Part shown: positions 15,762 through 34,717 of the stretch, one piece after another | How positions within the stretch are numbered: the first letter of the stretch is position 1 | How the letters are laid out: each line of letters begins with the position of its first letter | Program-made: the position numbers and the translations under genes | Origin: Sulfuriferula multivorans | Lineage (GTDB): Bacteria > Pseudomonadota > Gammaproteobacteria > Burkholderiales > Sulfuriferulaceae | Length of the DNA stretch: 64,000 bases | Direction of reading: 5' to 3' | Assembly (NCBI RefSeq): GCF_003851125.1 | Contig: NZ_BGOW01000015.1 | Span: 1 to 64,000, forward strand | Notes under the pieces: generated by a model | The model's input: only the letters and a program-made list of their open reading frames with translations | What the model was told of the DNA's origin: nothing | Database searches by the model: none

Positions 15762-15769
15762 ATCGAGCC

Positions 15770-17719: not shown

Positions 17720-17748
17720 CGCTGCTCTCCTGAAGTGAATTCCGTAAG

Positions 17749-19287
17749 CTACTGTTTTGCGTCCAGCCGAATGGCCGTACTTACCAATTGATGGACACCA
17801 CCCACCATGCTCATGTCGAAGCCGTAATACGGGAGCACCTTGGTGAACTGTGCCTTGCAGATCGCACAGATGGTGGCCATGAAGTTGACGCCATGGTTGT
17901 CCACAACATCCTTGAATGCATCCATGCGCGGCTGCGCACCCTTGACCCGCAGTTCCATCAGGTCGTCGGTCAACAGGCCACCGCCGCCGCCGCAACAGAA
18001 GGTGCCCTCAAGTATGGTTTCCGGAGCCATGTCGTGGAAACGGTTGGCTACCGACTTGATGATTTCCCGCGGGATAAGGAACTGCCCGCCCGGCATGTCG
18101 CCCATGCGCGAGCCCCGCGCCACGTTGCAGGAATCATGGAAAGTGATGATGCGGTGATCGTTGGCTTCCTTGTCCATCGTGATCGCACCCTGCTGCAGCA
18201 GGTCGTAAGTCACTTCGCAGATATGCGCGGGTTGCGGATAGTTGGGATCCAGCTGTTGTTGCAGCATCCTGCCGTATTTGTCGTCAGCGCCTGCGCCGAG
18301 ACCAACACCGATCAACGTATTCCAGAAACTGTAGGCGACGCGCCAGGCATGGCCGCACTCGCCCACTACAATGCGTTTGACACCCAGTTCCAGCGCCGCT
18401 TCGCGGATGCGTAGCGCCACCTTTTGCATCTGCTCGTAGTTGCCGATAAACATGCCGAAGTTGCCGGCCTCGGAGGCAAGTGAGGACAGCGTCCAGCTAA
18501 TTCCGGCAGCATGGAACACCTTGGCGTAACCGATCAGGCTTTCCACGTGCGGCTCGGAGAAGAAATCCGCGGAGGGCGTGATCAGCAGCACTTCCGCGCC
18601 CTTGACGTCGATGGGTAGTTTCACCGCAAAGCCGGTATCCTCCTCGATGTCTTCTTCCAGGCCTGTCAGGGTGTCCAATAGAGCTGGGCCGGGCAGCCCC
18701 AGATTGTTGCCGATGCGATGCACCTTGCCCAGGATCTCGTTGGTGTATTTCTGGCCGATGCCCACGCAGTCCAGTATCTCGCGGCCCGCCATGGTGATTT
18801 CGGCGGTATCGATACCATAGGGGCAGTACACCGAGCAACGGCGGCATTCGGAACACTGGTAGTAATAACGGTACCAGTCATCCAGCACTTCCCTGGTCAG
18901 ATCCTTGGCCCCTACCAGCTTGGGAAAATATTTCCCGGCAAAGGTGAAATAACGGCGATAAACCTGGCGCATCAGATCCTGGCGCGCCACCGGCATGTTC
19001 TTGGGATCACTGGTGCCGAGATAATAATGGCACTTGTCGGTGCACGCCCCGCAGTGCACGCACGCATCCATAAAAACCTGCAGCGAGCGATATTTGCCAA
19101 GCAGTTCGCCCATCCTGCCGATGGCAGTTTCCTGCCAGTTTTCCGCCAGTTCGCCCGGGAAGCCCAGTGCTTCCTGTATCTGCGCGTTCGCCGGGAAGGA
19201 TTTGACCTCCGCTGCCGCACCTTCGCGCAGCAGCGGAATGTCCGTGTAACCCTTCAGTTCAGGAACTTCGAATTTGGGTGCGGCCAC
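17749..19287 (-). CDS. dsrK: DsrK, HdrD-like iron-sulfur subunit
   Basis: 512 aa, GTG start at 19287 after ACAGGGGATCCAG. Two [4Fe-4S] motifs (CVHCGACTDKCHYY and CSECRRCSVYCPYG) are followed by CCG domains (VGECGHAW, FHDSCNVAR, GTFCCGGGGG, AICKAQ) that hold the catalytic non-cubane-type cluster in heterodisulfide-reductase relatives. It is the cytoplasmic, DsrC-oxidising/reducing subunit of DsrMKJOP. It follows dsrM by 15 bp. Confidence 0.95.
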   Translation of the reverse strand: MAAPKFEVPELKGYTDIPLLREGAAAEVKSFPANAQIQEALGFPGELAENWQETAIGRMGELLGKYRSLQVFMDACVHCGACTDKCHYYLGTSDPKNMPVARQDLMRQVYRRYFTFAGKYFPKLVGAKDLTREVLDDWYRYYYQCSECRRCSVYCPYGIDTAEITMAGREILDCVGIGQKYTNEILGKVHRIGNNLGLPGPALLDTLTGLEEDIEEDTGFAVKLPIDVKGAEVLLITPSADFFSEPHVESLIGYAKVFHAAGISWTLSSLASEAGNFGMFIGNYEQMQKVALRIREAALELGVKRIVVGECGHAWRVAYSFWNTLIGVGLGAGADDKYGRMLQQQLDPNYPQPAHICEVTYDLLQQGAITMDKEANDHRIITFHDSCNVARGSRMGDMPGGQFLIPREIIKSVANRFHDMAPETILEGTFCCGGGGGLLTDDLMELRVKGAQPRMDAFKDVVDNHGVNFMATICAICKAQFTKVLPYYGFDMSMVGGVHQLVSTAIRLDAKQ

Positions 19288-19302
19288 CTGGATCCCCTGT
19301 TC

Positions 19303-20031
19303 TTATTTCTCAAGCCGTGCAGCCCAGGAGGCCACATGGCGCGTATCCCTGGAGTTGTCGGCCTGGTTGCGAGTTGGGCTGAAAAATATGCCGGGTGCAT
19401 GCAGCAGTTTGCTGATGGGAAAAATGATCATGAGTAGTGCGACCAGGGACAGATGCGCCAGCAAGATTGGGTCGGCTGGCAGGGGTTGCCAGTCAAACAC
19501 CATGAGGCCGAGCATGAACTCCTTGAGCCCGACGATATTGGTATGCACGACAAAGCTCATGGCCATGCCGGTCAAACCGATGCCGACCAGCAGGGCGAGC
19601 ATCAGGTGGTCGGAGGGGGTGGAAATGTAACGCACCCGATCCACCAGAAAGCGCCGCGCCCACAGGCCAAGCAGGCCTGCGATCATGGCGAATGCGGCGT
19701 ATTTGCCGAAGGGCTGAATCAACACCACCCAGCCCCATACCGGCTCGGTGAAATAACGCAGGTGGCGCAGCAGCACCAGCAGCAGGCCAAAATGGAACAT
19801 CCAGCCGAAAATCCAGATCCACTTGTTGGATTTGAACAGGCTTTCGAACAACACGACTTCACGCCCCATGCGCATCACAACGCCGGTCGTGGTAGTGGGC
19901 GCGGGCATGGTGGGAATCTTCAGCGGCGCCGGGGTGCGGCTATAGATATAAATCTTATAAGCCAGTCCGCTGACCAGCAGCGCTGTCGCCAGATAAAACA
20001 GAAGCGCAAAAAAAATTGTGAGCGATGACAT
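19303..20031 (-). CDS. dsrM: DsrM, cytochrome b membrane subunit (NarI-like)
   Basis: 242 aa with about six hydrophobic helices (FFALLFYLATALLVSGLAY, WMFHFGLLLVLLRHL, LMLALLVGIGLTGMAMSF, ILLAHLSLVALLMIIF). Histidines such as FHFG, LRHL, AHLS and LLHAPG are candidates for the two b haems of the NarI family. It anchors DsrK and links it to the quinone pool. It is the first gene of the MKLJOP block, 89 bp after dsrC. Confidence 0.93.
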   Translation of the reverse strand: MSSLTIFFALLFYLATALLVSGLAYKIYIYSRTPAPLKIPTMPAPTTTTGVVMRMGREVVLFESLFKSNKWIWIFGWMFHFGLLLVLLRHLRYFTEPVWGWVVLIQPFGKYAAFAMIAGLLGLWARRFLVDRVRYISTPSDHLMLALLVGIGLTGMAMSFVVHTNIVGLKEFMLGLMVFDWQPLPADPILLAHLSLVALLMIIFPISKLLHAPGIFFSPTRNQADNSRDTRHVASWAARLEK

Positions 20032-20120
20032 GCTAGCGCTTGCCTTCCGGTCTCAAATAAACTGCAGTGCAACGGCCTCGTGAGACCGTTGCCGCTTTAC
20101 GCTGCATCAGCCGCCGTAGA

Positions 20121-20453
20121 TCAGATGCAGCCGGTGGGTTTGGGCAGGCCGGCAATCTTGCATGCCTGCTTGGCCGGACCGTACGGAAACAGCTCGTACA
20201 AGTATTTGCTGTTGCCCTTCTCCGCGCCCAACTTCTTGCCGATCGCCTTGGTCAGCACGCGCACCGCAGGAGCAATCTGGTAGTCGTTGTAGTACTCGCG
20301 CAGGAAATTGACCACTTCCCAGTGATTTTCGGTCATATCCACTTTCTCGCCCTCGGCCAGCACTTTGGCGATATCTTCGTCCCATTCGCTCAGGTTGAGC
20401 AGGTAGCCCTCTTCATCGGTCTCGTAGGTCTTGCCGTTAACTTCCAAAGCCAT
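20121..20453 (-). CDS. dsrC: DsrC, sulfur-carrying protein with both redox cysteines
   Basis: 110 aa. DsrC/TusE fold starting MALEVNGKTYETDEEGYL. The flexible C-terminal arm QACKIAGLPKPTGCI has both conserved cysteines, Cys98 and the penultimate Cys109, with ten residues between them as in true DsrC. It carries sulfur from DsrEFH and forms the trisulfide/disulfide exchanged between DsrAB and DsrK. Compare the cysteine-free paralogue at 25438-25770. Confidence 0.96.
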   Translation of the reverse strand: MALEVNGKTYETDEEGYLLNLSEWDEDIAKVLAEGEKVDMTENHWEVVNFLREYYNDYQIAPAVRVLTKAIGKKLGAEKGNSKYLYELFPYGPAKQACKIAGLPKPTGCI

Positions 20454-20483
20454 GATATGTAACCTCTCTAATTTAAAATCCGT

Positions 20484-20789
20484 TTACAACCAGGATTGCA
20501 CGTTGCTGTGCTCAACCACCAAATCGACGAAACCGCCATAGTCCACCATTTTCACGCCTTCCAGCACCCGGTCCTGGATGCCGCGAGCCTCCACGTCAGG
20601 CCATAGCGCATACACCTGGATGTCGCCCATGACATCGTGGACGGCATTCCCCGCAACGCTGTTTTTTGTTGCCGCATAAACCCCATCTTCGATCAACAGC
20701 AGCGCGCCACCACCGCCCTTGCACACAACGCGCAGGCAACTGGCGAGCGTGGTGTTTTCGAATGGAGATTTGTTCACGATGTGCAGCAT
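20484..20789 (-). CDS. dsrH: DsrH, sulfur relay subunit
   Basis: 101 aa, TusB/DsrH family: MLHIVNKSPFENTTLASCLRV, with Cys18 at the family position, GGGALLLIEDGVYAA, and the terminal VQSW. It forms the DsrE2F2H2 hexamer with DsrE and DsrF, which passes sulfur to DsrC. It is 11 bp after dsrF. Confidence 0.94.
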   Translation of the reverse strand: MLHIVNKSPFENTTLASCLRVVCKGGGGALLLIEDGVYAATKNSVAGNAVHDVMGDIQVYALWPDVEARGIQDRVLEGVKMVDYGGFVDLVVEHSNVQSWL

Positions 20790-20800
20790 TCGTTTTCCCC

Positions 20801-21205
20801 TTAAAAACCAATAACCACGTCCTGAGTTTTCATCAGGTCGCCCATTGCGGCAGAGGACAGCACTTCCACCGGTACCAGCAGGTCGTCCGCGTTCAAGCCA
20901 CGCATCTCCAGCGACTCGCGTTCCACATACAGCTTCTCGATGTCGTAACCTTCCAGCGCCCGGTAGGTGGGTGAGAAGTTTTTCACAGCGAGGGCTTTGG
21001 TATGCTGCCCCTTGACCAGCTGGTACACACCGTCATCCAGAAAAGCCATGCTCACGTCCTGATCGAAAGCCGCGCTGATCAGCACCACTTCCAGCCCTTC
21101 CAGCGCGTAAATCGTTCCGTAAGGCGCCTTGCGGTTGACGAACATGAATTTCTTTACGATGCCGGAGCCCTCGTCATCCTCGATACCGCCTGTTGTCTCG
21201 TTCAT
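20801..21205 (-). CDS. dsrF: DsrF, sulfur relay subunit
   Basis: 134 aa from the ATG at 21205 (MNETTGGIEDDEG), preceded by GAGGAGGGTG; the frame is open upstream but overlaps dsrE. TusC/DsrF family: KKFMFVNRKAPYG, ALEGLEVVLISAAFDQDVSMAFLDDGVYQL and the TQDVVIGF end. It contains no cysteine, in line with DsrF being a structural partner in the hexamer. Confidence 0.93.
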   Translation of the reverse strand: MNETTGGIEDDEGSGIVKKFMFVNRKAPYGTIYALEGLEVVLISAAFDQDVSMAFLDDGVYQLVKGQHTKALAVKNFSPTYRALEGYDIEKLYVERESLEMRGLNADDLLVPVEVLSSAAMGDLMKTQDVVIGF

Positions 21206-21221
21206 CACACCCTCCTCTTGC

Positions 21222-21581
21222 TCAATCACCAAATACCACCAGCCGATCGGCCTGGATGCCGGCCTCGACCAGTTGACCCAGACCGGAAATGCGAAAACCG
21301 GGCGCCAGATTCTCGTCGCAGATACCGCGACGCAGGGCAGCGGCAACGCACACCACCAGATCGATGCCGTGCTCTTCCGCCAGCTTGGACCAGCGCGCAA
21401 CAACGTTACGATCATCCTGCGGCGGCTCGGTCAGCCGGGTGGCATTGTTGACGCCGTCGTGATAGAAAAAAACCCGGTAGATTTGATGACCCTTTTCCAA
21501 TGTCGCCTTGGCAAACTGATATGCGCTATCCGTGGCCTGGTGGGTGTAGGGGCCTTCGTTGACCATGATTCCGAATTTCAT
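21222..21581 (-). CDS. dsrE: DsrE, sulfur-transferring subunit
   Basis: 119 aa. MKFGIMVNEGPYTHQ and GHQIYRVFFYHDGVNNA are typical, and the catalytic cysteine in IDLVVCVAAALRRG is residue 78, exactly the number known for Allochromatium DsrE. It receives persulfide sulfur (from rhodanese/TusA-type donors) and passes it to DsrC. First of the dsrEFH trio, 69 bp after dsrB. Confidence 0.95.
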   Translation of the reverse strand: MKFGIMVNEGPYTHQATDSAYQFAKATLEKGHQIYRVFFYHDGVNNATRLTEPPQDDRNVVARWSKLAEEHGIDLVVCVAAALRRGICDENLAPGFRISGLGQLVEAGIQADRLVVFGD

Positions 21582-21650
21582 ACCTTCAATCCCTTTTTTA
21601 TGGCACGGTCACAGCCGGCCTTGCGCACTGCAGGAACGGCTCAAAAGCAA

Positions 21651-22721
21651 CTAAAAACGGATATGCGCAGAGGCGTTCAGCGTCGACCGCGAGCCACGCC
21701 AATCGTCAATGTGGTACTTGGTGAAAGGCAGACCGGTTTTCTCAAAGAAGCGCGGCCAGCCGATGCGCTCGATCCAGTCCGCCATACGCTCCCAGGGCTG
21801 CGCATCCGCCTTGTACACGGACAGAATGTTCTTGACCACAGCGGCCACTTCCGGCCAGCGCGGCGCGTTGTTGGGCAAGCCGGAAGCCACCAGCTTGTGG
21901 AAAGTGGGGCGAGAACGCGCGTTGGAGTTCTTGCCGCCGACCCAGATCGCAATCTTGGAATGCTCCGGATCGTTGATCTGCATCGGTGGGCAGGGAGGGT
22001 AGCAGGCGCCGCAGCAAACACATTTTTTCTCGTCCACTTCCAGGGAAGGTTTGCCGTTCACCAGCGCCGGACGAATCGCCGCCACCGGGCAACGCGCCAC
22101 CACGGTAGGGCGCTCGCACACGTTCGCAACCAGATCATGGTTGATCTTGGGCGGCTTGGTGTGCTGCATGATAATCGCGATGTCGGCCTGGCCGCCGCAG
22201 TTGATCTCGCAGCAGGAGGTGGACATCTTGACCCGGTTGGGCATCTCGCATTTGATGAACTCGTCGTAGAGTTCGTCCATCAATGCCTTTACCACGCCGG
22301 AAGCATCGGTGCCGGGGATGTCGCAGTGCAGGAAACCCTGGGTGTGGGCAATCATGGAAACCGAGTTGGCGGTACCGCCGATCGGAAAACCATGATCATT
22401 CAGCGCCTTGATCAGGGGTTCCACTTTGCTCTCGTCGGCAACCATGTATTCGATGTTGCTGCGCGCGGTAAAGCGTACGTGTCCGTCGGCGAATTGGTCG
22501 GCAATGTCACACAACGTGCGGATGGTGTAGACATCCATCTGGCGCTGGGTGCCCGCCTTGACTGTCCAGATTTCATCGCCGCTTTCAGCGCGGTGGCGCA
22601 GGACACCGGGTTTCGGATGATCATGGTAAGCCCACTTGCCATAGTTTTTGACCATGACCGGGTGCATGTAGGGCATCGGATCCGGAACGCCGCTCTCAAT
22701 GGGTGAACGCATTTCAGCCAT
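21651..22721 (-). CDS. dsrB: reverse dissimilatory sulfite reductase, beta subunit
   Basis: 356 aa. Sirohaem/[4Fe-4S] region TSCCEINCGGQADIAI and an inserted ferredoxin domain (KKCVCCGACYPPCPPM together with RCPVAAIRP). The ferredoxin domain joins DsrAB to its electron partner. It follows dsrA by 50 bp after a GGAGAT ribosome site. Confidence 0.96.
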   Translation of the reverse strand: MAEMRSPIESGVPDPMPYMHPVMVKNYGKWAYHDHPKPGVLRHRAESGDEIWTVKAGTQRQMDVYTIRTLCDIADQFADGHVRFTARSNIEYMVADESKVEPLIKALNDHGFPIGGTANSVSMIAHTQGFLHCDIPGTDASGVVKALMDELYDEFIKCEMPNRVKMSTSCCEINCGGQADIAIIMQHTKPPKINHDLVANVCERPTVVARCPVAAIRPALVNGKPSLEVDEKKCVCCGACYPPCPPMQINDPEHSKIAIWVGGKNSNARSRPTFHKLVASGLPNNAPRWPEVAAVVKNILSVYKADAQPWERMADWIERIGWPRFFEKTGLPFTKYHIDDWRGSRSTLNASAHIRF

Positions 22722-22771
22722 AATTTCTTATCTCCAGATAGAAAACTTGTTCAGCGCTTAATGAAGCGGCA

Positions 22772-24073
22772 TTAACCGGCAATTTTTCTCTTGTGTTCTG
22801 CCGCCTTCTCGACTTCTTCGTCCCAGCCATCCGTGCGTACATAGGGATTGCTGCGCGGCTCCAGAACCATGTTCGCGTCAATATCAATACCGACGCCTTC
22901 CAGGAAGTTGACCAGGCCGATGCGATCGATCATCTCGCCGGTGCGTTCATGCTCCAGCGCGTTTTCGGCAAAGAAGTCGATAATGCTGCGCGACAGAGTG
23001 GCCAGCGCTTCAAAGTCTTCATCGGATTCCAGCTTCATGAACGGAACCACCATCGTGCCCATGGTGGCGCCGATCTTCAGCACGCTCTTGCCGCCCACCA
23101 GGATGCTCACACCTTTATCGGTGCCGGGAAGCAGCGCACCCGGCATGACGTTCAGGCAATGCATGCAGCGCACGCAATTGTGGTTGTCGATTTGCAGGGA
23201 CTGGGTGTCGGTGACGGCCACGCTGGAGATACCGTCGGCCCGGGAAACGTTGGCGGTATTTTTCAGGGACAAGGCCTTGGTCGGACAACGGCTGATCACG
23301 TCGTTAACCAGTTTTTCCATGCCGTGTTTGGCCATGTAATCCTTGGCCAGCGCCTCGTTGACACGGATGCTGTCGCGCCAGGTACCGATTACCGCCATGT
23401 CGGAACGCTGAATGGCGTTCACGCAATCATTGCCGCAGCCCGAGAATTTGAATTTGAATTTATACGGCAACGCGGGACGATGCATGTCATCAATATTGTC
23501 ATTGATGATGGTCCGCAATGCTTTTGCCTCGTCGAAGTTGGACATTTCACAACGGGCTGCACCCACACAGGACATGGAGGTGCGCAGGGCAGGACCGGCG
23601 CCGCCCATGTCGAAGCCCATTTCGTTCAGCTCGTCGAAGGCGGGCTGGACGTTTGCAGTGGAGACACCCTGGAACATAATGTCGCCGCTTTGGCCATGCA
23701 GGGCAATCAGCCCGGAACCATGTTTTTCCCACAGATCGCAGAGCTTGCGCAGGATCTCGGTGTTGTAGTGCATGCCGGCCGGCGGCTGGATACGCAGGGT
23801 GTGAAATTCAGCGGCAGCTGGATAGATGGGCTTTCCTTGATCGTCCTTCAACTCGCTAAAACGCGGGATCACACCACCACCGTAGCCGAACACACCCACG
23901 GTACCGCCCTTCCAGTAACCTTTCCTGGTCTGGTAGGAGGTTTCCAGCTGACCCATCAGGTCAACCATCATGTCGTTGTCCTTGGCCAGACGCTTCAGCC
24001 CGGTTACAAAGCTGGGCCACGGTCCGCTCTCGAGTTGGTCAAGCATCGGCGTGTCGTACATCTTCTTGGTCAT
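22772..24073 (-). CDS. dsrA: reverse dissimilatory sulfite reductase, alpha subunit
   Basis: 433 aa from the ATG at 24073 (MTKKMYDTPMLDQLES), preceded by AAGGGAGTGG; an in-frame ATG at 24088 is less likely. Catalytic sirohaem-[4Fe-4S] ligands are in CVGAARC (Cx5C) and CGNDC (Cx3C). Ferredoxin insertion: ISRCPTKAL and NHNCVRCMHCLNVMPGA. It catalyses oxidation of DsrC-bound or sirohaem-bound sulfide sulfur to sulfite in the cytoplasm. First gene of the operon; divergent from the Cas6-like operon. Confidence 0.97.
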   Translation of the reverse strand: MTKKMYDTPMLDQLESGPWPSFVTGLKRLAKDNDMMVDLMGQLETSYQTRKGYWKGGTVGVFGYGGGVIPRFSELKDDQGKPIYPAAAEFHTLRIQPPAGMHYNTEILRKLCDLWEKHGSGLIALHGQSGDIMFQGVSTANVQPAFDELNEMGFDMGGAGPALRTSMSCVGAARCEMSNFDEAKALRTIINDNIDDMHRPALPYKFKFKFSGCGNDCVNAIQRSDMAVIGTWRDSIRVNEALAKDYMAKHGMEKLVNDVISRCPTKALSLKNTANVSRADGISSVAVTDTQSLQIDNHNCVRCMHCLNVMPGALLPGTDKGVSILVGGKSVLKIGATMGTMVVPFMKLESDEDFEALATLSRSIIDFFAENALEHERTGEMIDRIGLVNFLEGVGIDIDANMVLEPRSNPYVRTDGWDEEVEKAAEHKRKIAG

Positions 24074-24333
24074 AGCCACTCCCTTCATTCCACCAGTAAG
24101 TAGTTGCCGGTTTGTCCAAATTCCATGGTTGAACTTATGATCAACCGATCAATCTATTCAACCAGACTGCACTAGTCGTTAACCTGACCCTTCCTGCCGT
24201 GCTCAAAGGCCACGTAGTCCATGACCGCTGATGCGGTCGCCGGAAACTGATACTCGGCGCAATGTCACTGAAAGTTCATGTATGTTCCTCCTTCAAAAAC
24301 GCCAATTCCATAAACTTGATTGGTAGTACACAC

Positions 24334-24349
24334 CTAACCATTCGGGTAG
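24334..24349. promoter_or_regulatory. NarL-like palindrome in the dsr divergent regulatory region
   Basis: The 435-bp space 24074-24508 separates dsrA from the divergent Cas6-like operon and must hold both promoters. CTAACC-ATTC-GGGTAG at 24334-24349 is an imperfect inverted repeat of the size and type bound by NarL/FixJ regulators. The flanks share a short direct repeat, GGTAGTACAC at 24322 and GGTAGTGCAC at 24345. Near 24139-24152, GATCAACCGATCAA is a tandem of FNR half-site-like hexamers, but not a proper FNR box. Assignments are by eye. Confidence 0.35.
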
Positions 24350-24508
24350 TGCACCCCCCCCTTTTGGGCTAGTTTCTTGTGCTGGCGACAATGAGAGACT
24401 TTGCTCAGGATGAAGCAATGAGGCCGATTACAATCCTGTCGAGCCCGGGTAGCCCAGGTGCCTTTAAGAAATGCGGCTTTCCTGCTCCACGCTCATTGGG
24501 GACAAAAA

Positions 24509-24754
24509 TTGGACGCGATTGAAATCAGAACGCTGCATACATTGCTGGCCTCGCCCTACCGGCAGCAAATCGAGCTTCAGCACGTACTGCACCAGGCCGA
24601 TTACGTGACGCTGCGGGTAAGGATTCGCGAGCAGAAACGTTTTACCATTTTCGATATAGACGAACCCACCGCCAGGGCGTGGGGGTTGGCCATGCTGGAA
24701 TGGGCGGACACCCTTGCCCAGTCCGGGCAGGTCAAAGCAGGAGAAGGAAAATAG
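24509..24754 (+). CDS. small conserved-looking protein, unknown function
   Basis: 81 aa from a TTG at 24509 with TTGGGGA upstream; a GTG at 24458 would add 17 residues. Sequence features: IEIRTLHTLLASPYRQQIELQHVLHQADYVTLRVRIREQKRFTIFDID, a small alpha/beta-looking domain without signal or membrane helix. It is the first gene of the operon divergent from dsrA and ends 26 bp before the Cas6-like gene. I do not recognise a family with certainty. Confidence 0.6.
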   Translation: MDAIEIRTLHTLLASPYRQQIELQHVLHQADYVTLRVRIREQKRFTIFDIDEPTARAWGLAMLEWADTLAQSGQVKAGEGK

Positions 24755-24780
24755 GCTGGCTCAACGACGATCACGCGGAG

Positions 24781-25407
24781 ATGTCGGAAATCGGCATCGC
24801 CGCGATGTCCGATGCGCATCTGGAATTGCGCGGCCCGCACATACCGGCGGATCACGGCTATCTGCTGTTTCGGGAACTGCTGCGCTGGTTGCCCTGGATC
24901 GAGGATGAGCCCTTGCTGGGCATTCATCCTGTGCATGGCGCCGACAGCGGCGCCGGCGAACTGATGCTGAACCGGCGTACCAAACTGGTGGTGCGCTGCC
25001 CGGCCGGCCGTCTGGATGAATTAACAAAACTTAACGGGCGCACCATCCACCTGGAGCAACAGGAACTGGTCATTGGCGCCTGCAAGATCAAGCCGCTGAG
25101 CAGGTACACGCCCTTGTATGCCCATTGCGTGGTCACCGGCAGCACAGATGAAAAAGAATTCACGCTCGACATCATGCGCATGCTGAGCCAGATGGGCATT
25201 GACAGCCGTTTCATTTGCGGCAGACGCCAGCAGGTTTTTGACGGCCGCGATACCGTTTCCGGCTATAGCCTGCTGCTGCACAACCTGCCATTGAAACATG
25301 CCATCCATATGCAGCAGCAGGGTCTGGGAGCGCACCGCAAGCTCGGGTGCGGCATCTTTATCCCGCATAAATCCATTGCCGCCGTCGGCGCAATAGGCTC
25401 GGTTTAA
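24781..25407 (+). CDS. Cas6/Cmx6-like RAMP-fold protein without CRISPR array
   Basis: 208 aa from the ATG at 24781 (MSEIGIAAMSDAHLELRG); the ribosome site CGCGGAG is close to the start, and the ATG at 24805 is an alternative. It follows the Cas6/Cmx6 plan known from type I-MYXAN systems: an N-terminal strand with IPADHGYLLFRELLRWLP (His25, Tyr27), LGIHPVHG, LVVRCPAGRLDELTKLNGRTI, FTLDIMRMLSQMGID, and the C-terminal glycine-rich RAMP loop GLGAHRKLGCGIFIPHKS (residues 181-198). Cas6 proteins cut CRISPR precursor RNA, but no repeat array, cas1/2 or effector genes are in the window. It sits in an operon with sulfur genes, so it has probably been recruited to a different RNA-binding or RNA-cutting task. 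The family call rests on motif comparison from memory. Confidence 0.78.
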   Translation: MSEIGIAAMSDAHLELRGPHIPADHGYLLFRELLRWLPWIEDEPLLGIHPVHGADSGAGELMLNRRTKLVVRCPAGRLDELTKLNGRTIHLEQQELVIGACKIKPLSRYTPLYAHCVVTGSTDEKEFTLDIMRMLSQMGIDSRFICGRRQQVFDGRDTVSGYSLLLHNLPLKHAIHMQQQGLGAHRKLGCGIFIPHKSIAAVGAIGSV

Positions 25408-25437
25408 TCGCCAATCCGTTAACGACAGGAGGAAAAA

Positions 25438-25770
25438 ATGAGCTACACCTACAACGGCCAGGAACTGGAAGTCGATGATGAAAAATTCCTGCTGGAACCG
25501 GTTTATGACGATGAAATCGTGCCCGTCATCGCCGGCGCGGAAAATATCGACCTGACCGACGAACACTGGTTCGTGGTGCGTTACCTGCGCGAGAAATTCC
25601 GTGAGGACGGCCATACGCCGAATTTCCGCAACATGGTCAAGGATCTCGAGGAAAACCATCCCGGTCCGGACTGGAAAAAGCATCTGTACACCCTGTTTCC
25701 CAACCAGCCTGCCCGCCAGGCGGCGCGGGTAGCCGGCCTGACCAAGCCGTTCGGGAAAGGCGGCTACTGA
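25438..25770 (+). CDS. DsrC-family paralogue lacking both redox cysteines (RspA type)
   Basis: 110 aa, preceded by ACAGGAGGAAAAA. Clear DsrC/TusE fold (MSYTYNGQELEVDDEKFLLEP, LTDEHWFVVRYLREKF), but the C-terminal arm reads QAARVAGLTKPFGKGGY: Ala replaces the first cysteine and the second is gone. It therefore cannot carry sulfur by the known mechanism. Cysteine-free members of the family have been called RspA and are suspected to be regulatory. It lies 30 bp after the Cas6-like gene and 55 bp before the sulfurtransferase. Confidence 0.88.
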   Translation: MSYTYNGQELEVDDEKFLLEPVYDDEIVPVIAGAENIDLTDEHWFVVRYLREKFREDGHTPNFRNMVKDLEENHPGPDWKKHLYTLFPNQPARQAARVAGLTKPFGKGGY

Positions 25771-25825
25771 TAGCGCCCAATATGAACATGGCCGACCGAT
25801 TCCGTTACCATCCCGCCCTGCGGCC

Positions 25826-26671
25826 ATGAGGTCCGCCACGCTGGTCAGCACCGAACAACTCGCTCGGCGTCTCGACGACCCGGACTGGATCCTGTTCGAC
25901 TGCCGCTTTACCCTGACCCGGCCCGAAGCCGGACGCCAAGCCTACACCACCGCGCACATCCCGGGCGCCCGCTATGCCCACCTGGACGCCGACCTGTCCG
26001 CGCCGGTTCTGCCCGCCAGCGGCCGCCACCCGCTGCCCGATCCCGCCATACTGGGTGAAAAACTCGGCCGCTGGGGAGTAAGCCAGGACGTCCAGGTCGT
26101 GGTGTACGACGACAGCTTCGGCTCCATGGCGGTGAGACTGTGGTGGTTGCTGCGCTGGCTGGGGCATGAAAACGTGGGCCTGCTGGACGGCGGCTTGCAC
26201 AAATGGCAGCGGGAAAAGCGTCTGCTCACGGCAGATGCGCCGACGATCGTGCCAGCACGCTTCGAAGCCCGGCCCAATGCCGATCTGTGCGCAGACGCCG
26301 CCGAGGTGAGCGCCGCCATCCGCCGCGGCGAAGCAGTGCTCGATGCCCGCCCGGAGGAGCGTTTCATCGGCTTCGTGGAACCCCTCGACAAAGTGGCCGG
26401 CCATATCCCCGGCGCGATGAACCGGCCGTTCGAGGACAACCTGGACCTGGACGGCACTTTACTCGGCGCCGACGCGTTGCGCGCCGCCTATCTGGAGGCG
26501 CTGGGCGCGACCCCGCCGCAGCGCAGCATTCATATGTGCGGATCCGGTGTCAGCGCCTGCCACAACCTGCTGGCCATGGAGATTGCCGGATTGTCCGGCG
26601 CCCGGCTCTACCCCGGCTCCTGGAGCGAATGGATCACCGATCCGTCGCGCCCAACCATCAAGGAGGATTAA
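25826..26671 (+). CDS. sseA: thiosulfate / 3-mercaptopyruvate sulfurtransferase (two-domain rhodanese)
   Basis: 281 aa, two rhodanese domains. N-terminal inactive domain: WILFDCRFTLTRPEAGRQAYTTAHIPGARYAHLDADLS. C-terminal catalytic domain: VLDARPEERFIG and HIPGAMNRPF. The active-site loop is Cys238-Gly-Ser-Gly-Val-Ser, the CGSGV(S/T) form typical of 3-mercaptopyruvate sulfurtransferases; thiosulfate as donor is also possible. In this context it could supply persulfide sulfur to DsrE/DsrC. No signal peptide, so cytoplasmic. It is 6 bp before the next gene. Confidence 0.88.
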   Translation: MRSATLVSTEQLARRLDDPDWILFDCRFTLTRPEAGRQAYTTAHIPGARYAHLDADLSAPVLPASGRHPLPDPAILGEKLGRWGVSQDVQVVVYDDSFGSMAVRLWWLLRWLGHENVGLLDGGLHKWQREKRLLTADAPTIVPARFEARPNADLCADAAEVSAAIRRGEAVLDARPEERFIGFVEPLDKVAGHIPGAMNRPFEDNLDLDGTLLGADALRAAYLEALGATPPQRSIHMCGSGVSACHNLLAMEIAGLSGARLYPGSWSEWITDPSRPTIKED

Positions 26672-26677
26672 ACCAAA

Positions 26678-27265
26678 ATGGCTATCCGCGTTAAAACCAT
26701 CTGGTTCAAGCAGGAGGACGGCCCCAAGGGACCGGAGCAACAGGCCGGTGTGATCGCACTTACCATATGGAAGCTGGCAGACAAAACGGTCATCGACCTT
26801 TCCAAGTCCGATTACGACATCATCACTCCCCAACGCGGCTTTACCCTGCTGGCGGAACTGGCAGCCTTCATGCTGCATCTCGCCGACCGCATGGTGTACC
26901 GCCGCATCGCGGACGCTGAACGGCAAGTCCTGGTGCAGGCCCTGGCAAAGCGCCTGGCGGAAATCCTGGAAGAAAATATCCACGAGGTGATGAACGACCA
27001 CGGCCACCCCTACCAGGCCGACTTCATCAACCTGGTCAACCGGCGCGGCCAGGATTACGCCAGCTTCGATTTTCCGCCGGAGCAACCCAGTTTTTCAGCG
27101 CTGCGCTACCTGGGCAACTGCATCCGCGACATCATGGAAGGCCGCGACCAGCCCTGGGTGATCGACCAGATCATGGAACTGGAAGCGCCAGAGATGGTAG
27201 CAACCGTCAAGAAAGCGGTGGATGGCCTGTTTCCGCAAACATCAGGCGTTCCCCTGCCCGCATGA
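26678..27265 (+). CDS. conserved-looking hypothetical protein in dsr-divergent operon
   Basis: 195 aa, preceded by AAGGAGGATTAAACCAAA. It starts MAIRVKTIWFKQEDGPKGPEQQAG, and the rest is mostly helical (FTLLAELAAFMLHLADRMVYRR, LVQALAKRLAEILEENIHEVM, NRRGQDYASFDF). No cofactor motif, signal or membrane helix. It overlaps the next gene by 4 bp, so translational coupling with the TauD-like enzyme suggests a joint function. Family not recognised. Confidence 0.7.
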   Translation: MAIRVKTIWFKQEDGPKGPEQQAGVIALTIWKLADKTVIDLSKSDYDIITPQRGFTLLAELAAFMLHLADRMVYRRIADAERQVLVQALAKRLAEILEENIHEVMNDHGHPYQADFINLVNRRGQDYASFDFPPEQPSFSALRYLGNCIRDIMEGRDQPWVIDQIMELEAPEMVATVKKAVDGLFPQTSGVPLPA

Positions 27266-28149
27266 CAAGCACACGCAGCCCTTTCCATCTGGACGCCGAC
27301 GCCGCTTATCAGGCCTGGCGCGAAGCCAAGCTGAGCAATTACCCCAGGCGCGCCGAAGACATGGTGGTGGAGGTAGGCGACCCGCGTGCGCTCACCCCGG
27401 CGGAGCATGACGCGATCCTGATACGTTGCCGCAAGACCAACCTGGCCATCTACGCCAGCCACTGCGGCGCCACGCCGGGCAAGGACATCCCGCGCATGTT
27501 GGGGCTGCAATTCGGCCTGAAACAACTGGACCACAACCTGCTGGCGGACGAGGATGCCATCACCTCTCTCACCGTCGCCGCAGGCGGCGGCCAACGCGGC
27601 GACTTCATTCCCTATACCGACCGCCCCATCCGCTGGCACACGGACGGTTACTACAACCCCCCGGAACGGCGCATCCTGGGGCTGATGCTGCACTGCGTAA
27701 CGCCTGCCGTCAGCGGCGGGGAGAATACCCTGCTCGACCACGAAATCGCCTACCTGCTGATGCGCGATGCGAGCCCCGAGCACATCCGCGCGCTCATGGC
27801 GCCCGATGCCATGACCATTCCGGCGCGCATGGACGAGAACGGTGTGGCGCGGCCCGCTGAAACCGGCCCGGTGTTTTCCGTGTTGGACAGCGGCCAACTC
27901 CACATGCGCTACACCGCTCGCACCCGCAGTATCGAATGGAATCCGTCTCCGGCCACCCTGGCCGCCGTGGCCTTCCTGGAACAGCTGCTGGCGAGCGACC
28001 TGTCCTATATCTTCCGCGCCCGGTTGGAGTCCGGCATGGGCCTGGTCTGCAACAACGTGCTGCATGACCGCAGCGGTTTCAGTGACAATGAAACGCAACG
28101 GCGCCTGCTCTACCGCGCACGTTATTACGAGCGCATGGCAAACACCTGA
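27262..28149 (+). CDS. TauD/TfdA-family Fe(II)/2-oxoglutarate dioxygenase-like protein
   Basis: 295 aa. Jelly-roll dioxygenase: HxD iron ligands in IRWHTDGYYN, distal His in NVLHDRSGF, and the 2-oxoglutarate-binding Arg in RLLYRARYYER. The spacing fits the TauD family (TauD releases sulfite from taurine). The N-terminal half is GDPRALTPAEHDAILIRCRKTNLAIY and LGLQFGLKQLDHNL. The substrate is unknown; a sulfonate would fit the sulfur context, but that is inference. It starts inside the last codons of the upstream gene (4-bp overlap). Confidence 0.82.
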   Translation: MTSTRSPFHLDADAAYQAWREAKLSNYPRRAEDMVVEVGDPRALTPAEHDAILIRCRKTNLAIYASHCGATPGKDIPRMLGLQFGLKQLDHNLLADEDAITSLTVAAGGGQRGDFIPYTDRPIRWHTDGYYNPPERRILGLMLHCVTPAVSGGENTLLDHEIAYLLMRDASPEHIRALMAPDAMTIPARMDENGVARPAETGPVFSVLDSGQLHMRYTARTRSIEWNPSPATLAAVAFLEQLLASDLSYIFRARLESGMGLVCNNVLHDRSGFSDNETQRRLLYRARYYERMANT

Positions 28150-28218
28150 GCCTGCACTGGGCAACCACCCTTATACAACTCTGTTGGGGTGTAATTTGAT
28201 CACTCCGGAAAGGCATGG

Positions 28219-28515
28219 ATGATGAGCGACGAACTCAAGGAGCCCTCAATGGAGCGACGCATCCTCCGCGTCATGCGCAAGACGCTGGCGAATGTCGTCA
28301 AGGACGCCACACCGCGCGCCAACATGCCTAGTTGCCTGTCGGATCAGACCGTAGAGGACATCCGCCACTGTTTCGAACTGATCTCAATCAGGGAAAAAGA
28401 ACTGGCCGAAACGCTGAACCTGGATCAGGCACATCCCCTGTACCCGGACCAGGAAAGAACAGCCAAGCGCATCATCATCAGCAAACCCGTCAAACCGGAT
28501 CCGGAAAAATATTGA
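28219..28515 (+). CDS. small hypothetical protein at end of dsr-divergent operon
   Basis: 98 aa; GGAAAGGC upstream supports the ATG at 28219 or 28222. Sequence: ERRILRVMRKTLANVVKDATP, LSDQTVEDIRHCFELISIREKELAE, and a basic tail (KRIIISKPVKPDPEKY). Soluble, helical, charged. I have a weak memory of similar proteins annotated as ScpA-like in related bacteria, but see no convincing motif for that. It is 69 bp after the dioxygenase gene. Confidence 0.6.
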   Translation: MMSDELKEPSMERRILRVMRKTLANVVKDATPRANMPSCLSDQTVEDIRHCFELISIREKELAETLNLDQAHPLYPDQERTAKRIIISKPVKPDPEKY

Positions 28516-28531
28516 GGACACCACCATAAAT

Positions 28532-28560
28532 CCAGGCATCCAGGCATCCAGGCATCCAGG
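28532..28560 (+). repeat. 8-bp tandem repeat
   Basis: CCAGGCAT repeated three times followed by CCAGG, directly after the stop codon of the small gene and at the head of the response-regulator fragment. Too short for a CRISPR array; likely slippage in non-coding DNA. Confidence 0.8.
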
Positions 28561-28771
28561 ATTTTAAATCGGATCGCCAGGACGATCTGATCGCCGCATT
28601 GCACGCCCCCTGCGGCAAGAGGCACGTCCCAGCACGCCGCAGGAAGCCGGGCTTACCGAAGGCACGGTCAAGGTCCACATCAAGCACCTGCTGAAAAAGC
28701 TCAATCTGCGCTGCCGTGTAGGCTGCCGAAAGAGCGGAGCGCAGCTGAGCGCGGCTGCACCTGCCCCCTAA
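28560..28771 (+). pseudogene. remnant of a NarL/FixJ response regulator
   Basis: One frame from 28560 reads SDRQDDLIAALHAPCG, like the receiver-to-DNA-binding linker of NarL regulators. A second frame reads GLTEGTVKVHIKHLLKKLNLRC, the core of a LuxR-type helix-turn-helix, and ends in TAA at 28769-28771. The frames are out of register and the intervening receiver and helix 1 are missing, so this is a frameshifted, internally deleted fragment. No start codon. It overlaps the last bases of the DUF2249 gene on the other strand. Confidence 0.7.
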
Positions 28772-29022
28772 CGACGCGTGAAACGGATGACGATGTTGCC
28801 GGGTTGGCGTTCGACATATTTCACTTCGACCGTCCCACCATAGCGCTGGTGCATTTGGTCGATTAACGGCAATGGATCGTGATCATTGACGAATTGCATG
28901 GTCTCCCCCGGGTGCAAGGCATCCAGGGCGCCGAATATAGCCGCATGGCGGAAGCGCTTGGCGACACCGCGGGCATCGAAAAGATGGGGTTGCCCATCAA
29001 GAATCTGCAAGTTCGGAAGCAT
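28768..29022 (-). CDS. DUF2249-domain protein
   Basis: 84 aa from the ATG at 29022 (MLPNLQILDGQPHLFDARG), with AGAAGGA upstream. LHPGETMQFVNDHDPLPL is the typical DUF2249 core (a SirA-like fold with an HDP motif), followed by a C-terminal strand RQPGNIVIRFTRR. DUF2249 proteins are often found with NO/nitrite metabolism and haemerythrin-like genes; the exact role is unknown. Downstream of, and in the same direction as, the HdrB-like gene, 168 bp away. Confidence 0.75.
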   Translation of the reverse strand: MLPNLQILDGQPHLFDARGVAKRFRHAAIFGALDALHPGETMQFVNDHDPLPLIDQMHQRYGGTVEVKYVERQPGNIVIRFTRR

Positions 29023-29190
29023 GTTTATCCTTCTCAATTAGTTTGGTCAAGCTGGCATTTATCCTGAAAAAAGCATGCGGGCCGGGCGACAAGTCACCCA
29101 TCCTTGCGAAGCCTGTTTCCTCCGTGCTCCTGTGGCTTCAACTGCTTTTCCCAGGTTTACGCCAAGCCGGGACGCCTATCATTTCCCTGT

Positions 29191-30552
29191 TTAACTCTTC
29201 AGCCTCGGCGCAGTACCCAGCGCAAGTTCCGGGTTGTAGAGATATTCGATGTTGCCCGCCTCGACTTCCTTGAGGTAGGCCTCGAATGTCTTTTTGGCTT
29301 CGGTCCAGGATATGCCCATTTTCTCCACCAGTTCTTCGCAGGGAGAAGCATGCCATTGCAACTGCACGATTTTTAATGGGTCCGCACCGCAAGCCAGCGC
29401 CGCGAACTGAATATCAGCCATGACCGGCACCGAAAAGTTGTTGTCGTGCGCCTTGCCGATCCACTGGTTCTTGTCCATGGTGGTGATGCAACCGGTATCA
29501 ATCCCGATCAGCACGTCCGCATTGGCTTCTTCGCGCACCACACGAATCTTGCGATCCATGGTGAAGGAACGGACAAATTCCCGCTCGGAGATAATGTGAC
29601 GGAAACCGAAGCCGCAGCAGTCGTACCAGGTGGAGTAGTCGATCAGCTGCGCACCCAGGGCCAGCGCCACGGAACTGCCCACGGCGGTGCGGTTGCCGCC
29701 CAGGATGGTTGGGTCATAGATGGCATCTTCATGCACCATCTTGTAATAGTGGCAAGCCGGGTGCATGGTGACGCGGATATTCGACACATCGACGGTCTGC
29801 AGCTCGGAGGCAACGCGGTTGCGCATCACGTGCAGCCATTCGGAGTAGTGAATGATCTCTTCCGGGATCACCAGCTTGCCGTCTACCAGACGTCCCAGCT
29901 TGCCGAGTATCTTGGTAACGCGCCCGCGCAGTTCGGCAGATTCCACCAGGTACTTGCGGATTTCCTTGTAGTTGCCGAAGGAGGTGCCGCAATGCACCAG
30001 CGGGAAGAAATGGCCCGCCTCGAAACCATGCTGTTTGCCAGAGATATAGGCCTGGTGAAAGTTGCGCAGGAACACCGCAGCCAGCGATTCGACGTTGCCG
30101 ATGCCGGAGCCGTGGTAATTCCATGCGGTGCATGAAGTCTGGTCGGTTTCGTCGAGGTAGTCCCTGCCCGGCTCAAAACCGAACTTGTTCATGAACCACA
30201 TCAGGGAAGTCGGATAGCCGGGGATATTGCCGCACTGCCCGCAGGATTTGTGGTGCCAGAGCTGGATGGTGGGAATGCGCTTGTTCCATCCGAACAGGGT
30301 CTGGACGTCGATGGGCTTGTGTGCGTCGGTAATGCGATGCACGATGATCTGGCCATCCTTCTCCAGCTCCCACATGTGATCGCGAATGTCGTCCATGCGC
30401 TCGCCCAGATCAACGGTGCGCTTGTCGACGTGCTTGCGTACCCACTCGGTGGCCTTCTCGGCATCCGCACTGGATAAACCCGCGTCCTGGAAAAACGAGC
30501 CGTGACCGGCAATGCCTTGATTTACCCCCGTTACATCCTTACCTGTTTCCAT
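29191..30552 (-). CDS. HdrB-like iron-sulfur protein (CCG-domain heterodisulfide reductase subunit)
   Basis: 453 aa with an AAGGAGGTC ribosome site. HdrB/CCG-type cysteine groups: KSCGQCGNIPGYP near residue 105, VHCGTSFGNYKE, MHPACHYYKM, YDCCGFGFRH and DTGCIT. No membrane segment. It is longer than methanogen HdrB because of an N-terminal extension of about 95 residues. HdrB-like proteins serve in sulfur oxidation (sHdr) and in DsrK-type complexes, but no HdrA, HdrC or lipoate-binding protein gene is present here. Divergent from the GAF gene, with a perfect NsrR-type operator 147 bp upstream of its start codon, so expression is probably NO-responsive (inference). Confidence 0.8.
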   Translation of the reverse strand: METGKDVTGVNQGIAGHGSFFQDAGLSSADAEKATEWVRKHVDKRTVDLGERMDDIRDHMWELEKDGQIIVHRITDAHKPIDVQTLFGWNKRIPTIQLWHHKSCGQCGNIPGYPTSLMWFMNKFGFEPGRDYLDETDQTSCTAWNYHGSGIGNVESLAAVFLRNFHQAYISGKQHGFEAGHFFPLVHCGTSFGNYKEIRKYLVESAELRGRVTKILGKLGRLVDGKLVIPEEIIHYSEWLHVMRNRVASELQTVDVSNIRVTMHPACHYYKMVHEDAIYDPTILGGNRTAVGSSVALALGAQLIDYSTWYDCCGFGFRHIISEREFVRSFTMDRKIRVVREEANADVLIGIDTGCITTMDKNQWIGKAHDNNFSVPVMADIQFAALACGADPLKIVQLQWHASPCEELVEKMGISWTEAKKTFEAYLKEVEAGNIEYLYNPELALGTAPRLKS

Positions 30553-30698
30553 GGATTGACCTCCTTGAGATAAAGGCCACGCCGCTCAAGCACGGTCAGC
30601 GATTTGACCTGTTTCATCCCCTATTGGGAGCATTTCTGACATTGCCTGCCGAATCCGACCGCACTATCTATTCTGCAGCATACCGCCGCCAGAAATAT

Positions 30699-30721
30699 AA
30701 GATGTACTATAGATACATCTT
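30699..30721. promoter_or_regulatory. NsrR-type operator (nitric oxide-responsive), perfect inverted repeat
   Basis: Half-sites AAGATGTA (30699-30706) and TACATCTT (30714-30721) are separated by 7 bp, the exact 23-bp layout of the NsrR consensus (AAGATGYA-N7-TRCATCTT). The perfect dyad extends outwards to 15 bp per arm (30692-30706 with 30714-30728). It lies in the 354-bp divergent space 30553-30906 between the HdrB-like and GAF genes, and could repress either or both. nsrR itself is not in the window. Confidence 0.8.
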
Positions 30722-30906
30722 ATATTTCAGTCAAGATATTACCCATAACTGAAAATGGAATCCAACCGCGGGTTTGATGCAAAAGATTTGGATTAACCTA
30801 TCGAAAATACACCTATACTGGATTGAGAAAATATAATGAATCGTCGCGTTTTTTGCGACCACCGCGCGAGGGCCGTATTCACTTATTTATAAGAGAGACG
30901 CCCGCC

Positions 30907-31845
30907 ATGAAAACTTTCATCCAGGTAAGCGAGATCTGGGTACCCTCCAGGAATCGCACCGTTCTCGAATTCCAGGGCGGTTTGTACGGCCCCTACAAAC
31001 AGTTGCGCATGGCCAGCGAGCGCATGTGCTTCGGCTACGACGAGGGCCTGCCGGGCAAGGCCTGGGCCGCGCGTCACCCCATCCTTCTCAAGGACTGGCA
31101 GCAACCCTATTTCAGACGCGCCGAGGCCGTGCGGGAAGCGGGACTCACCTGCGGCGTGGCACTGCCCATCTTCGCCGGGGACTATCTGCTGGCGGTGGTG
31201 GTGATGTTCTGTGGCAACGACGCGGACAGCGTGGGCGCCATCGAGCTATGGCACAACGATCCGGCCCTGTCCTACGACATGAGCCTGGAAGATGGCTACT
31301 ACGGCAACGCCGTAAACTTCGAGTATGTCTCGCGCCGCACCCAGTTCCGCCCCGGCTTCGGACTGCCGGGCATGGTCTGGGAAAGCGGCATGCCGGTCAT
31401 CGTGGACAACCTGTGGAATGCGGAACGCTTTCTGCGCAAGGATGACGCGCGCAAGGCCGGGCTCAGCAATGGCCTGGGCATCCCTGTGTCCGGCGAAGCC
31501 GGCCAGAATTATGTCATGACCTTCCTGTCCGCCATGGGAACGCCCATCGCCCGGCGCTTTGAGGTTTGGATACCCGAGGAGAACTGCGAGGCCCTGATCT
31601 TCAACGTCGGCCATTGCGACAACGTACCCGAGTTCGCCCTCGATTACGCCTCCACCCGGCTCTATCCCGGAGATAGTCCCATCAGCCGCGCCTGGATGCT
31701 GGGCATACCGGAGATCTGCGAATCCGTGGCGGAGGACAGCTCGGCCATCGGCGCCTCCGCCCGCAAGGCGCGGCTGGAGACCATGCTGGCCCTGCCCGTG
31801 CTGGAGAACGGACGCCTCAAGGCAGTCGTGGCATTTTATTTCTGA
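30907..31845 (+). CDS. GAF-domain protein (two GAF-like repeats)
   Basis: 312 aa from the ATG at 30907 (MKTFIQVSEIWVPSRNRT). Two similar halves: each has a conserved EIWVP/EVWIPE opening, a segment ending in GxxGKAW or GLPGMVW, then an LxxxxxARxAGL stretch and a GIPV or ALPI strand. A third, partial GAF-like unit is at the C-terminus (RAWMLGIPEICES, LPVLENGRLKAVVAFYF). No output domain (kinase, cyclase, HTH) is attached, so it may be a ligand or NO/redox-sensing partner. Divergent from the HdrB-like gene across the NsrR-type operator. Confidence 0.72.
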   Translation: MKTFIQVSEIWVPSRNRTVLEFQGGLYGPYKQLRMASERMCFGYDEGLPGKAWAARHPILLKDWQQPYFRRAEAVREAGLTCGVALPIFAGDYLLAVVVMFCGNDADSVGAIELWHNDPALSYDMSLEDGYYGNAVNFEYVSRRTQFRPGFGLPGMVWESGMPVIVDNLWNAERFLRKDDARKAGLSNGLGIPVSGEAGQNYVMTFLSAMGTPIARRFEVWIPEENCEALIFNVGHCDNVPEFALDYASTRLYPGDSPISRAWMLGIPEICESVAEDSSAIGASARKARLETMLALPVLENGRLKAVVAFYF

Positions 31846-31903
31846 CAGGCGAGATTGGAGGCGGCCCCTGTGGCGCTGATGCGCTGGGGCACCCGTTACA
31901 CGC

Positions 31904-32740: not shown

Positions 32741-32911
32741 CGCTGTTCCTTTGTCTGAGTTATACGCAAAGGCGGCCAGAAACTGGTTTCACGAATTAAT
32801 ACTAGATGAATATCGACGCGGGAGAAAAATATTTTTGGCCGTTGATGGGCACGGTTCCCAAGGCATCATCCACGCTGGTTTCTCAGCATTTCCACCACTA
32901 AATGCTGCCTA

Positions 32912-34222: not shown

Positions 34223-34289
34223 AGGATTTTTTTAAAAGTGTTGTTAGCAATCACGCCACTGAGGTTCTGGCTCTGTAGTGTGCGTCGGG

Positions 34290-34631
34290 CTATGCCTTCT
34301 TGACAAATTCCGATTTCAACTGCATGGCGCCAATGCCATCAATTTTGCAGTCGATATCATGGTCGCCTTCAACCAGACGGATACTTTTTACTTTGGTGCC
34401 CACCTTAACCACCGATGACGAACCCTTGACCTTCAGGTCCTTGATCACGGTCACCGCGTCACCGTCCTGCAGCACATTCCCATAGGCGTCATGCACGACG
34501 CGCTTCTCGTCGGCACTCTCGGCGACCGCATCTTTCGACCATTCATGCGCGCATTCCGGGCAAACATACATCGTGCCGTCTTCGTAGGTGAATTCTGAAT
34601 TGCATTTTGGACATTTCGGTAATGAGGGCAT
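34290..34631 (-). CDS. phnA: PhnA-family zinc-ribbon protein
   Basis: 113 aa from the ATG at 34631 ([19 protein letters not shown]). N-terminal zinc ribbon CPKC...CPEC, then [25 protein letters not shown], the PhnA/YjdM family C-terminal domain, ending [15 protein letters not shown]. Despite its name the family is widespread and has no proven phosphonate role. No other phn genes are present. Confidence 0.88.
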
Positions 34632-34717
34632 GGGCGTCACTTTTTCTGATTCGTTAAGAGATTGGAGCCTGGTCTTGTAATGATGCATCCATGCAAAACC
34701 GGGCTCCAATTTTTCAC

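Follow-up and report, generated by a model that had tools for sequence, protein, structure and literature searches.

A Cas6 homologue coupled to dsr sulfur-oxidation genes in betaproteobacteria and gammaproteobacteria

Why should a protein of the Cas6 type, whose relatives serve CRISPR systems, be encoded among genes for sulfur oxidation? The stretch of DNA analysed here (the window, 64,000 nucleotides from Sulfuriferula multivorans) encodes a 208-residue Cas6-like protein (24781..25407, + strand) directly downstream of a gene for a small protein of 98 residues that belongs to the DUF6967 family (24458..24754, +; PF22295, 1.5e-24). On the same strand there follow a DsrC paralogue that has no cysteine and ends in KGGY where the redox tail would be (25438..25770, +; PF04358, 7.7e-29), a protein resembling rhodanese or 3-mercaptopyruvate sulfurtransferase (25826..26671, +; PF00581, in two stretches), an all-helical conserved protein (26678..27265, +; pLDDT 87.6, with neither Pfam nor NCBIfam giving a family above cut-off) and a homologue of TauD-like 2-oxoglutarate dioxygenases (27262..28149, +; PF02668, 3.4e-19). 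Divergent from this operon are dsrA (22772..24088, −; TIGR02064, 513 bits), dsrB (21651..22721, −; TIGR02066, 521 bits), dsrE, dsrF and dsrH (20484..21581, −; TIGR03012, TIGR03010 and TIGR03011) and a canonical dsrC with the tail TGCI (20121..20453, −; TIGR03342, 171.6 bits), all recognised by NCBIfam models above cut-off, together with a dsrM-like gene (19303..20031, −) whose best match, NF038037 at 165.5 bits, lies below the cut-off of 300. The gene order read in the preliminary description, with a cysteine-free DsrC paralogue and a sulfurtransferase encoded alongside and dsrA divergent, is therefore correct. The helical protein has no fold match in the PDB at E ≤ 0.001, and is also present in two genomes of roughly 1.1 Mb (L166, L179). 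An HdrB-like protein (29191-30552, −; below the NCBIfam cut-off) is encoded near the dsr locus as well.

The Cas6-type plan that had been proposed from the letters alone is borne out by matches over the whole length of the protein. Both PF09559 (Cas6, Pfam; E 4e-57, 193.7 bits against a cut-off of 26.7, profile positions 3-191 of 191) and TIGR02807 (cas6_cmx6, NCBIfam; 151.7 bits, cut-off 98.85) are significant and above their curated cut-offs, PADLOC returns Cas6 models only, and a PDB sequence search at E ≤ 0.001 gives a single match, the type I-B Cas6 chain 8fcj_B (E 7e-17). TIGR02807 is above cut-off in six other dsr-linked members too, and is matched at E ≤ 0.001 by 74 of 74 aligned members. 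The predicted model, built from 74 sequences (the protein's own and those from the loci), has a mean pLDDT of 91 and a pTM of 0.86, and contains the tandem RAMP (ferredoxin-like) fold when compared with solved Cas6. Its best Foldseek matches are 8fcu_B and 8fcj_B, the Cas6 chains of type I-B CAST Cascade (TM 0.85-0.86); Pyrococcus Cas6 and further proteins of the family come next. Profiles and predicted fold together confirm the 208-residue protein as a true full-length Cas6 homologue. Its start codon is uncertain, the frame being open from GTG 24679 so that an alternative start is possible; gammaproteobacterial homologues, as read from their loci, have about 15-20 additional N-terminal residues.

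Most of the residues expected of such a protein are kept. The glycine-rich loop GLGAHRKLGCGIFIPHKS lies near the C-terminus, as first described, and its glycines are near-invariant: in the dsr-linked alignment, G183, G189, C190 and G191 occur in 119 of 119 rows and G181 in 118 (this alignment counts six records twice; 113 rows remain without duplicates). Of the His25/Tyr27 pair that had been singled out, the active-site H25 is present in 98 of the 113 dsr-linked rows and in all seven CRISPR rows that cover it, but Y27 is Tyr in just 48 of the 113 and is therefore not a family feature. H25 is replaced in 15 rows, every one of them betaproteobacterial, by Asn in 11 and by other residues in 4; six of the 11 Asn rows come from records titled Thiobacillus or Thiobacillaceae, and the solved CAST chain 8fcj_B likewise has Asn at this position. 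Across the clade H25, K68, R72, Q178, R186 and the GCG loop are largely retained. Cys 190 is common to the dsr-linked clade and CRISPR Cas6. Cys 146 was considered as a conserved sulfur sensor and rejected, as the position is Cys in 87 of 113 rows and Pro in 19.

The gene keeps its company in relatives. It is present in 14 of the 61 nearest genomes (its own included), which are exactly those that match the DsrC paralogue of the window at E ≤ 1e-4, and in 13 of 13 fetched near relatives it is flanked by DUF6967 on one side and the DsrC paralogue on the other, with dsrA running the opposite way. A search of genome contigs with the single protein gave no match; the same search with an alignment gave 559 relatives, and the 80 best of them make up the betaproteobacterial loci described here (mostly from MAGs, some on short stretches). 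Record titles among these 80 include Sulfuricella, Thiobacillus, Sulfurimicrobium, Hydrogenophilus and Tepidiphilus. Within the best 80 of 559, dsrA is divergent in 78, the remaining two loci starting at contig ends, and the other neighbours recur at high frequency (DsrC paralogue 76/80, helical protein 76/80, DUF6967 72/80, rhodanese 71/80, TauD 56/80). Another 20 loci were taken from the remainder of the class: 17 have dsrA within the fetched stretch, and the usual order is TauD, Cas6, DsrC paralogue. As to those lacking dsrA, L154 adjoins dsrE to dsrM, and around L164 and L167 dsr genes are absent. In the case of L154, dsrA is matched on another contig, which points either to a dsr cluster that is divided or to a break in the assembly. 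In seven gammaproteobacterial loci (L203, L204, L208, L211, L216, L151, L157) a protein of 64-69 residues with a motif like MQ.KF...E is encoded after Cas6 or after the DsrC paralogue; the one copy searched, from L151, has no Pfam match.

Co-occurrence was scored in a class sample of 369 genomes, with thresholds of E ≤ 1e-5 for the Cas6-like profile and E ≤ 1e-40 for DsrA. Each is found in 118 genomes: 111 have both, seven have Cas6 only, seven have DsrA only and 244 have neither (odds ratio 553; Fisher p 5e-76, a value that presumes an independence which the genomes do not have). The survey of dsr-bearing genomes thus shows that the Cas6-like gene tracks dsrA (111/118), and that cas1 is not predictive of it. 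In the seven Cas6-only genomes the gene lies on short contigs or near contig ends. Among the seven with DsrA only, a contig ends close to dsrA or to the adjoining tauD in five; in a sixth, G271, a KGGY-ended DsrC begins at base 116 of its contig, and G414 (88% complete) is a real exception, with 1.7 kb beyond dsrA and no Cas6-like match. In the sampled beta- and gammaproteobacteria, then, this Cas6-like branch usually adjoins dsr genes and seldom occurs without dsr. Beyond the class, none of the 48 genomes of the phylum sample that bear DsrA (included in the PF09559-searched set, to judge from their numbering) has a PF09559 match, and therefore Dsr as such does not need Cas6. Six dsr loci fetched from outside the class have TauD near dsrA in four cases and DUF6967 in two; the Cas6-like gene and a second DsrC are absent from the fetched stretches.

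The coupling goes beyond physical linkage. In the 111 genomes with both genes, the two are within 6.5 kb of each other in 82, far apart on one contig in two and on different contigs in 27. Twenty-one of these 29 non-adjacent Cas6-like loci were fetched, one of which is L154, mentioned above. Fourteen of the other 20 have at least 5 kb on each side with no match there to dsrA, dsrB, dsrE or dsrM, dsrA being elsewhere in the genome; the remaining six lie nearer a contig end. The gene is also retained in genomes of roughly 1.1 Mb (G099, G202). Co-occurrence without linkage argues for function rather than hitchhiking. The clade is under purifying selection, with a median dN/dS of 0.112 and a maximum of 0.289 (103 pairs; protein identity 80-99.5%, dS 0.1-1.5). 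It is hardly credible, therefore, that the gene merely rides along with the dsr cassette and does nothing itself: its usual position close to dsrA is what a passenger would show, but its constraint and its retention both when unlinked and in small genomes are not. The case for the identity of the protein and for its coupling to dsr is strong. In three genomes of one family (1.4-1.6 Mb; L167, L181, L182) the Cas6-like gene stands alone, away from dsr genes; it is divergent from RNase III in L167 and L181 and adjoins it in L182, the assignment being model-confirmed for L167 and made by eye for the others.

Does the protein nevertheless work for CRISPR? The expectation that there is no CRISPR stands for the window, in which no CRISPR-like direct repeat family was found and where the neighbours of the gene are dsr genes rather than cas genes or an array. 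It fails for the genome, which carries a type I-C locus on another contig (C36, L029) with matches to Cas3c, Cas5c, Cas8c, Cas7c and Cas1c, and 41 array repeats in the stretch taken. In this locus, a WYL protein adjoins cas3. In type I-C systems, crRNA maturation is carried out by Cas5. An intact CRISPR-cas locus that makes use of this protein would speak against a recruited role; since type I-C is described as lacking cas6 in the passages available from PMC5944118, the resident locus is not such a case. The Cas6-like protein could still process crRNA in trans, as Cas6 does for type III systems according to the part of PMC12669027 that was available, and the genome does have an array for it to serve, but the resident system is of type I-C, and within the class sample 67 of the 118 Cas6-like carriers have no Cas1 match, the association being with dsrA instead. 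Here cas1 is present in 51 of the 118 carriers (43%) vs 85 of the 251 other genomes (34%; p = 0.08), and among the nearest genomes in 5 of 14 carriers. In view of the resident type I-C locus and of the cas1 counts, we consider use in trans very improbable. Viral contigs and phages yielded no confirmed Cas6-like copy. A Cas6/Cmx6 gene on a Gloeobacter plasmid (L030, 5968-6759), the only one annotated as cas within 12.6 kb (the gene table is incomplete), lies near a gene of the PAPS-reductase family, and is possibly another solo Cas6.

The dsr-linked proteins also form a branch of their own. A quick tree built on 62 thinned rows (midpoint root) splits seven CRISPR Cas6 proteins from 55 dsr-linked ones by a branch with an SH-aLRT of 98, and in it the gammaproteobacterial rows are a single group (support 99). 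The CRISPR comparison set is narrow (eight rows, seven of which enter the tree and the charge test, those in the tree all being from cyanobacterial plasmids) because plasmid searches yielded cyanobacteria only. Taken with the gene's distribution, the branch points to an undescribed role of a CRISPR protein in energy metabolism. Its members resemble Cas6/Cmx6 proteins such as 8fcj_B in the whole-length profile, the predicted fold (TM 0.86), the loop pattern GxG..R..GCG.F, R72, Q178 and, in most rows, the active-site His. They differ in their dsr-linked operon (in the window without linked cas genes or array), in their separate side of the tree, in having E124 where the CRISPR rows have Pro, in the PHK that follows the loop, and in charge: the median net charge of the core is 0 in betaproteobacterial and −3 in gammaproteobacterial members, vs +6 in the seven CRISPR proteins. 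The window protein has a net charge of +2 over its whole length. The K/R found at window positions 113, 120 and 185, kept in CRISPR Cas6, is gone from nearly all of the dsr-linked clade.

These charge data speak in part against an action of the clade on RNA, and they raise the alternative that the Cas6 fold no longer acts on RNA but has become a protein-binding scaffold or regulator, for example one that holds the KGGY-ended DsrC on or off DsrAB. Besides the lost positive charge and the three lost K/R columns, this reading would account for the 15 rows without H25, for the frequent pairing with the DsrC paralogue and for the residues that are new to the clade (R66 and E124 are invariant in all dsr-linked rows and not in CRISPR rows; W39, G147, H196 and K197 are near-invariant, and not fixed in CRISPR rows). 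It fits less well with the retention of H25 in all 29 gammaproteobacterial rows and of R72, Q178, R186 and the glycine loop in most, and no gene of the DsrC family lies within 1.5 kb in 10 of the 14 unlinked loci. We regard a scaffold as unlikely, though well worth keeping in mind.

The pairing with DsrC deserves description in its own right. The partner matches PF04358 and TIGR03342, as DsrC proteins do, and differs from them at its end: the conserved C-terminal Cys of redox-active DsrC gives way to a fixed KGGY, read in 75 of 76 betaproteobacterial and 27 of 27 gammaproteobacterial partners (102 of 103). Partners entirely free of cysteine number 54 of 76 and 24 of 27, respectively. No such partner is near by in 4 of the 80 betaproteobacterial loci (best 80 of 559) and 2 of the 29 gammaproteobacterial ones. 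The KGGY-ended paralogues (window 25438-25770, and partners in L032-L141) make up a distinct DsrC type. Non-redox DsrC paralogues are called RspA; a literature search on these returned nothing relevant. Linkage of DsrC-family genes to dsr is not universal, since Allochromatium vinosum has four further such genes outside its dsr cluster (PMC3368242, available in part). When Cas6 distances are compared with those of its neighbours given DsrAB (partial rank correlations, with no significance test), DUF6967 tracks Cas6 closest among ten genes compared (0.65), followed by the DsrC paralogue and TauD (0.47 each), canonical DsrC (0.33) and rhodanese (0.00).

The last value bears on a further alternative, a factor for tRNA or rRNA maturation or thiolation in Dsr cells that would link a TusE/DsrC-like protein and the rhodanese to RNA. 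In five of six scanned unlinked loci, an RNA-related gene lies first or second beside cas6, namely RlmB (L164), RNase III (L167), DusA (L203), ObgE one gene further (L212) and a Trm112-like gene below cut-off (L210); these neighbours were picked after the fact, from six loci only and with no control, and the sixth locus (L205) has GalU and a permease-like gene. The rhodanese is found in 71 of the best 80 of 559 loci and shows no co-variation with Cas6, and the dependence on dsr is left unexplained. We think this alternative improbable.

A substrate was sought among the transcripts of the loci themselves. On average, neither the gap before cas6 nor the one after it folds stably (mean z of 0.02 and 0.11), and Rfam finds nothing in positions 15000-35000 of the window and, across six loci, one tRNA and nothing relevant. 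Strong hairpins occur at fixed places in the dsr block, and are possibly mRNA stabilisers: mean z is −1.99 for dsrA-B (n=72), −3.15 for dsrB-E (n=71), −2.97 for dsrC-M (n=64) and −4.62 for the gap from the KGGY-ended DsrC to rhodanese (n=69), vs −0.37 for other same-strand gaps in the same loci (n=82, 52 loci). These scores are based on mononucleotide shuffles of gaps of 50-150 nt without N, with one or two loci doubled per set; in the example gaps printed, no sequence common to gaps or species is apparent by eye. Three of the six dsr loci from outside the class, which have no Cas6, also have at least one gap below −2, and the printed dsr gaps of two genomes of roughly 1.1 Mb that do have Cas6 (L166, L179) are without hairpins. 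The hairpins therefore look like a dsr feature and not evidence for Cas6, and we rejected them as its substrate.

The best reading of the sequences is an exapted Cas6, probably RNA-binding, that serves Dsr sulfur oxidation. We give about an even chance to the fuller statement that the dsr-linked clade has been untied from CRISPR and is a component of oxidative Dsr metabolism, binding and probably cutting a dedicated RNA. The step from the Cas6 fold to an action on RNA in this clade is one that we infer. The Cas6-like protein would bind a dedicated cellular RNA and, in most lineages, probably still cut it; in the simplest scheme it would govern how a transcript that Dsr requires is processed or how stable it is, and the KGGY-ended DsrC and DUF6967 would be protein partners that report on the pathway. 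More tentatively, and with rather more doubt than belief, we suggest that a single domestication among the ancestors of gammaproteobacterial sulfur oxidisers turned Cas6 into an RNA-processing enzyme dedicated to Dsr, the KGGY-ended DsrC signalling the state of the sulfur carrier.

Exaptation of CRISPR RAMP proteins has precedents in haloarchaeal HRAMP modules, with homologues of Cas5 and Cas7, and in a Streptomyces module of Cas5-6-7-8 with a STAND NTPase (PMC8730458). As far as the available part of that source goes, these resemble the present case in having RAMP-family proteins without adaptation module or array, and differ from it in being multi-gene, the Streptomyces one with a predicted defence role, as opposed to a single Cas6 in a metabolic locus. 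A 2023 study of mangrove MAGs (PMC10989796) names 'cas6' in a figure legend among the dissimilatory sulfur metabolism genes drawn; in the passages available this legend is the sole mention, with no interpretation, survey or statement on CRISPR. Literature naming Cas6 together with DsrC or dsrAB otherwise contains ordinary CRISPR mentions only, in a search that reached parts of papers and few subscription titles. The main texts of two papers on Dsr evolution do not contain the words CRISPR or Cas6, and the portions available of three papers on CRISPR evolution, classification and exaptation make no mention of a sulfur-linked Cas6. The NCBIfam naming model labels the protein CRISPR-associated, and counts of 'cas6' in dsr-bearing genomes would overstate their CRISPR content.

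Sulfur oxidation by Dsr drives purple sulfur bacteria, symbionts of vents and seeps, and many freshwater chemolithotrophs. A Cas6-like gene that accompanies dsrA in 111 of 118 genomes, and is kept even at roughly 1.1 Mb, is likely a working part of this pathway, and makes it possible to test whether the oxidation of sulfur is controlled by RNA processing. If our reading is true, a solo CRISPR endoribonuclease has been taken into central metabolism; on the more tentative reading, a major energy metabolism would be under RNA-level control by a CRISPR protein, hidden until now beneath an automatic 'CRISPR-associated' label.
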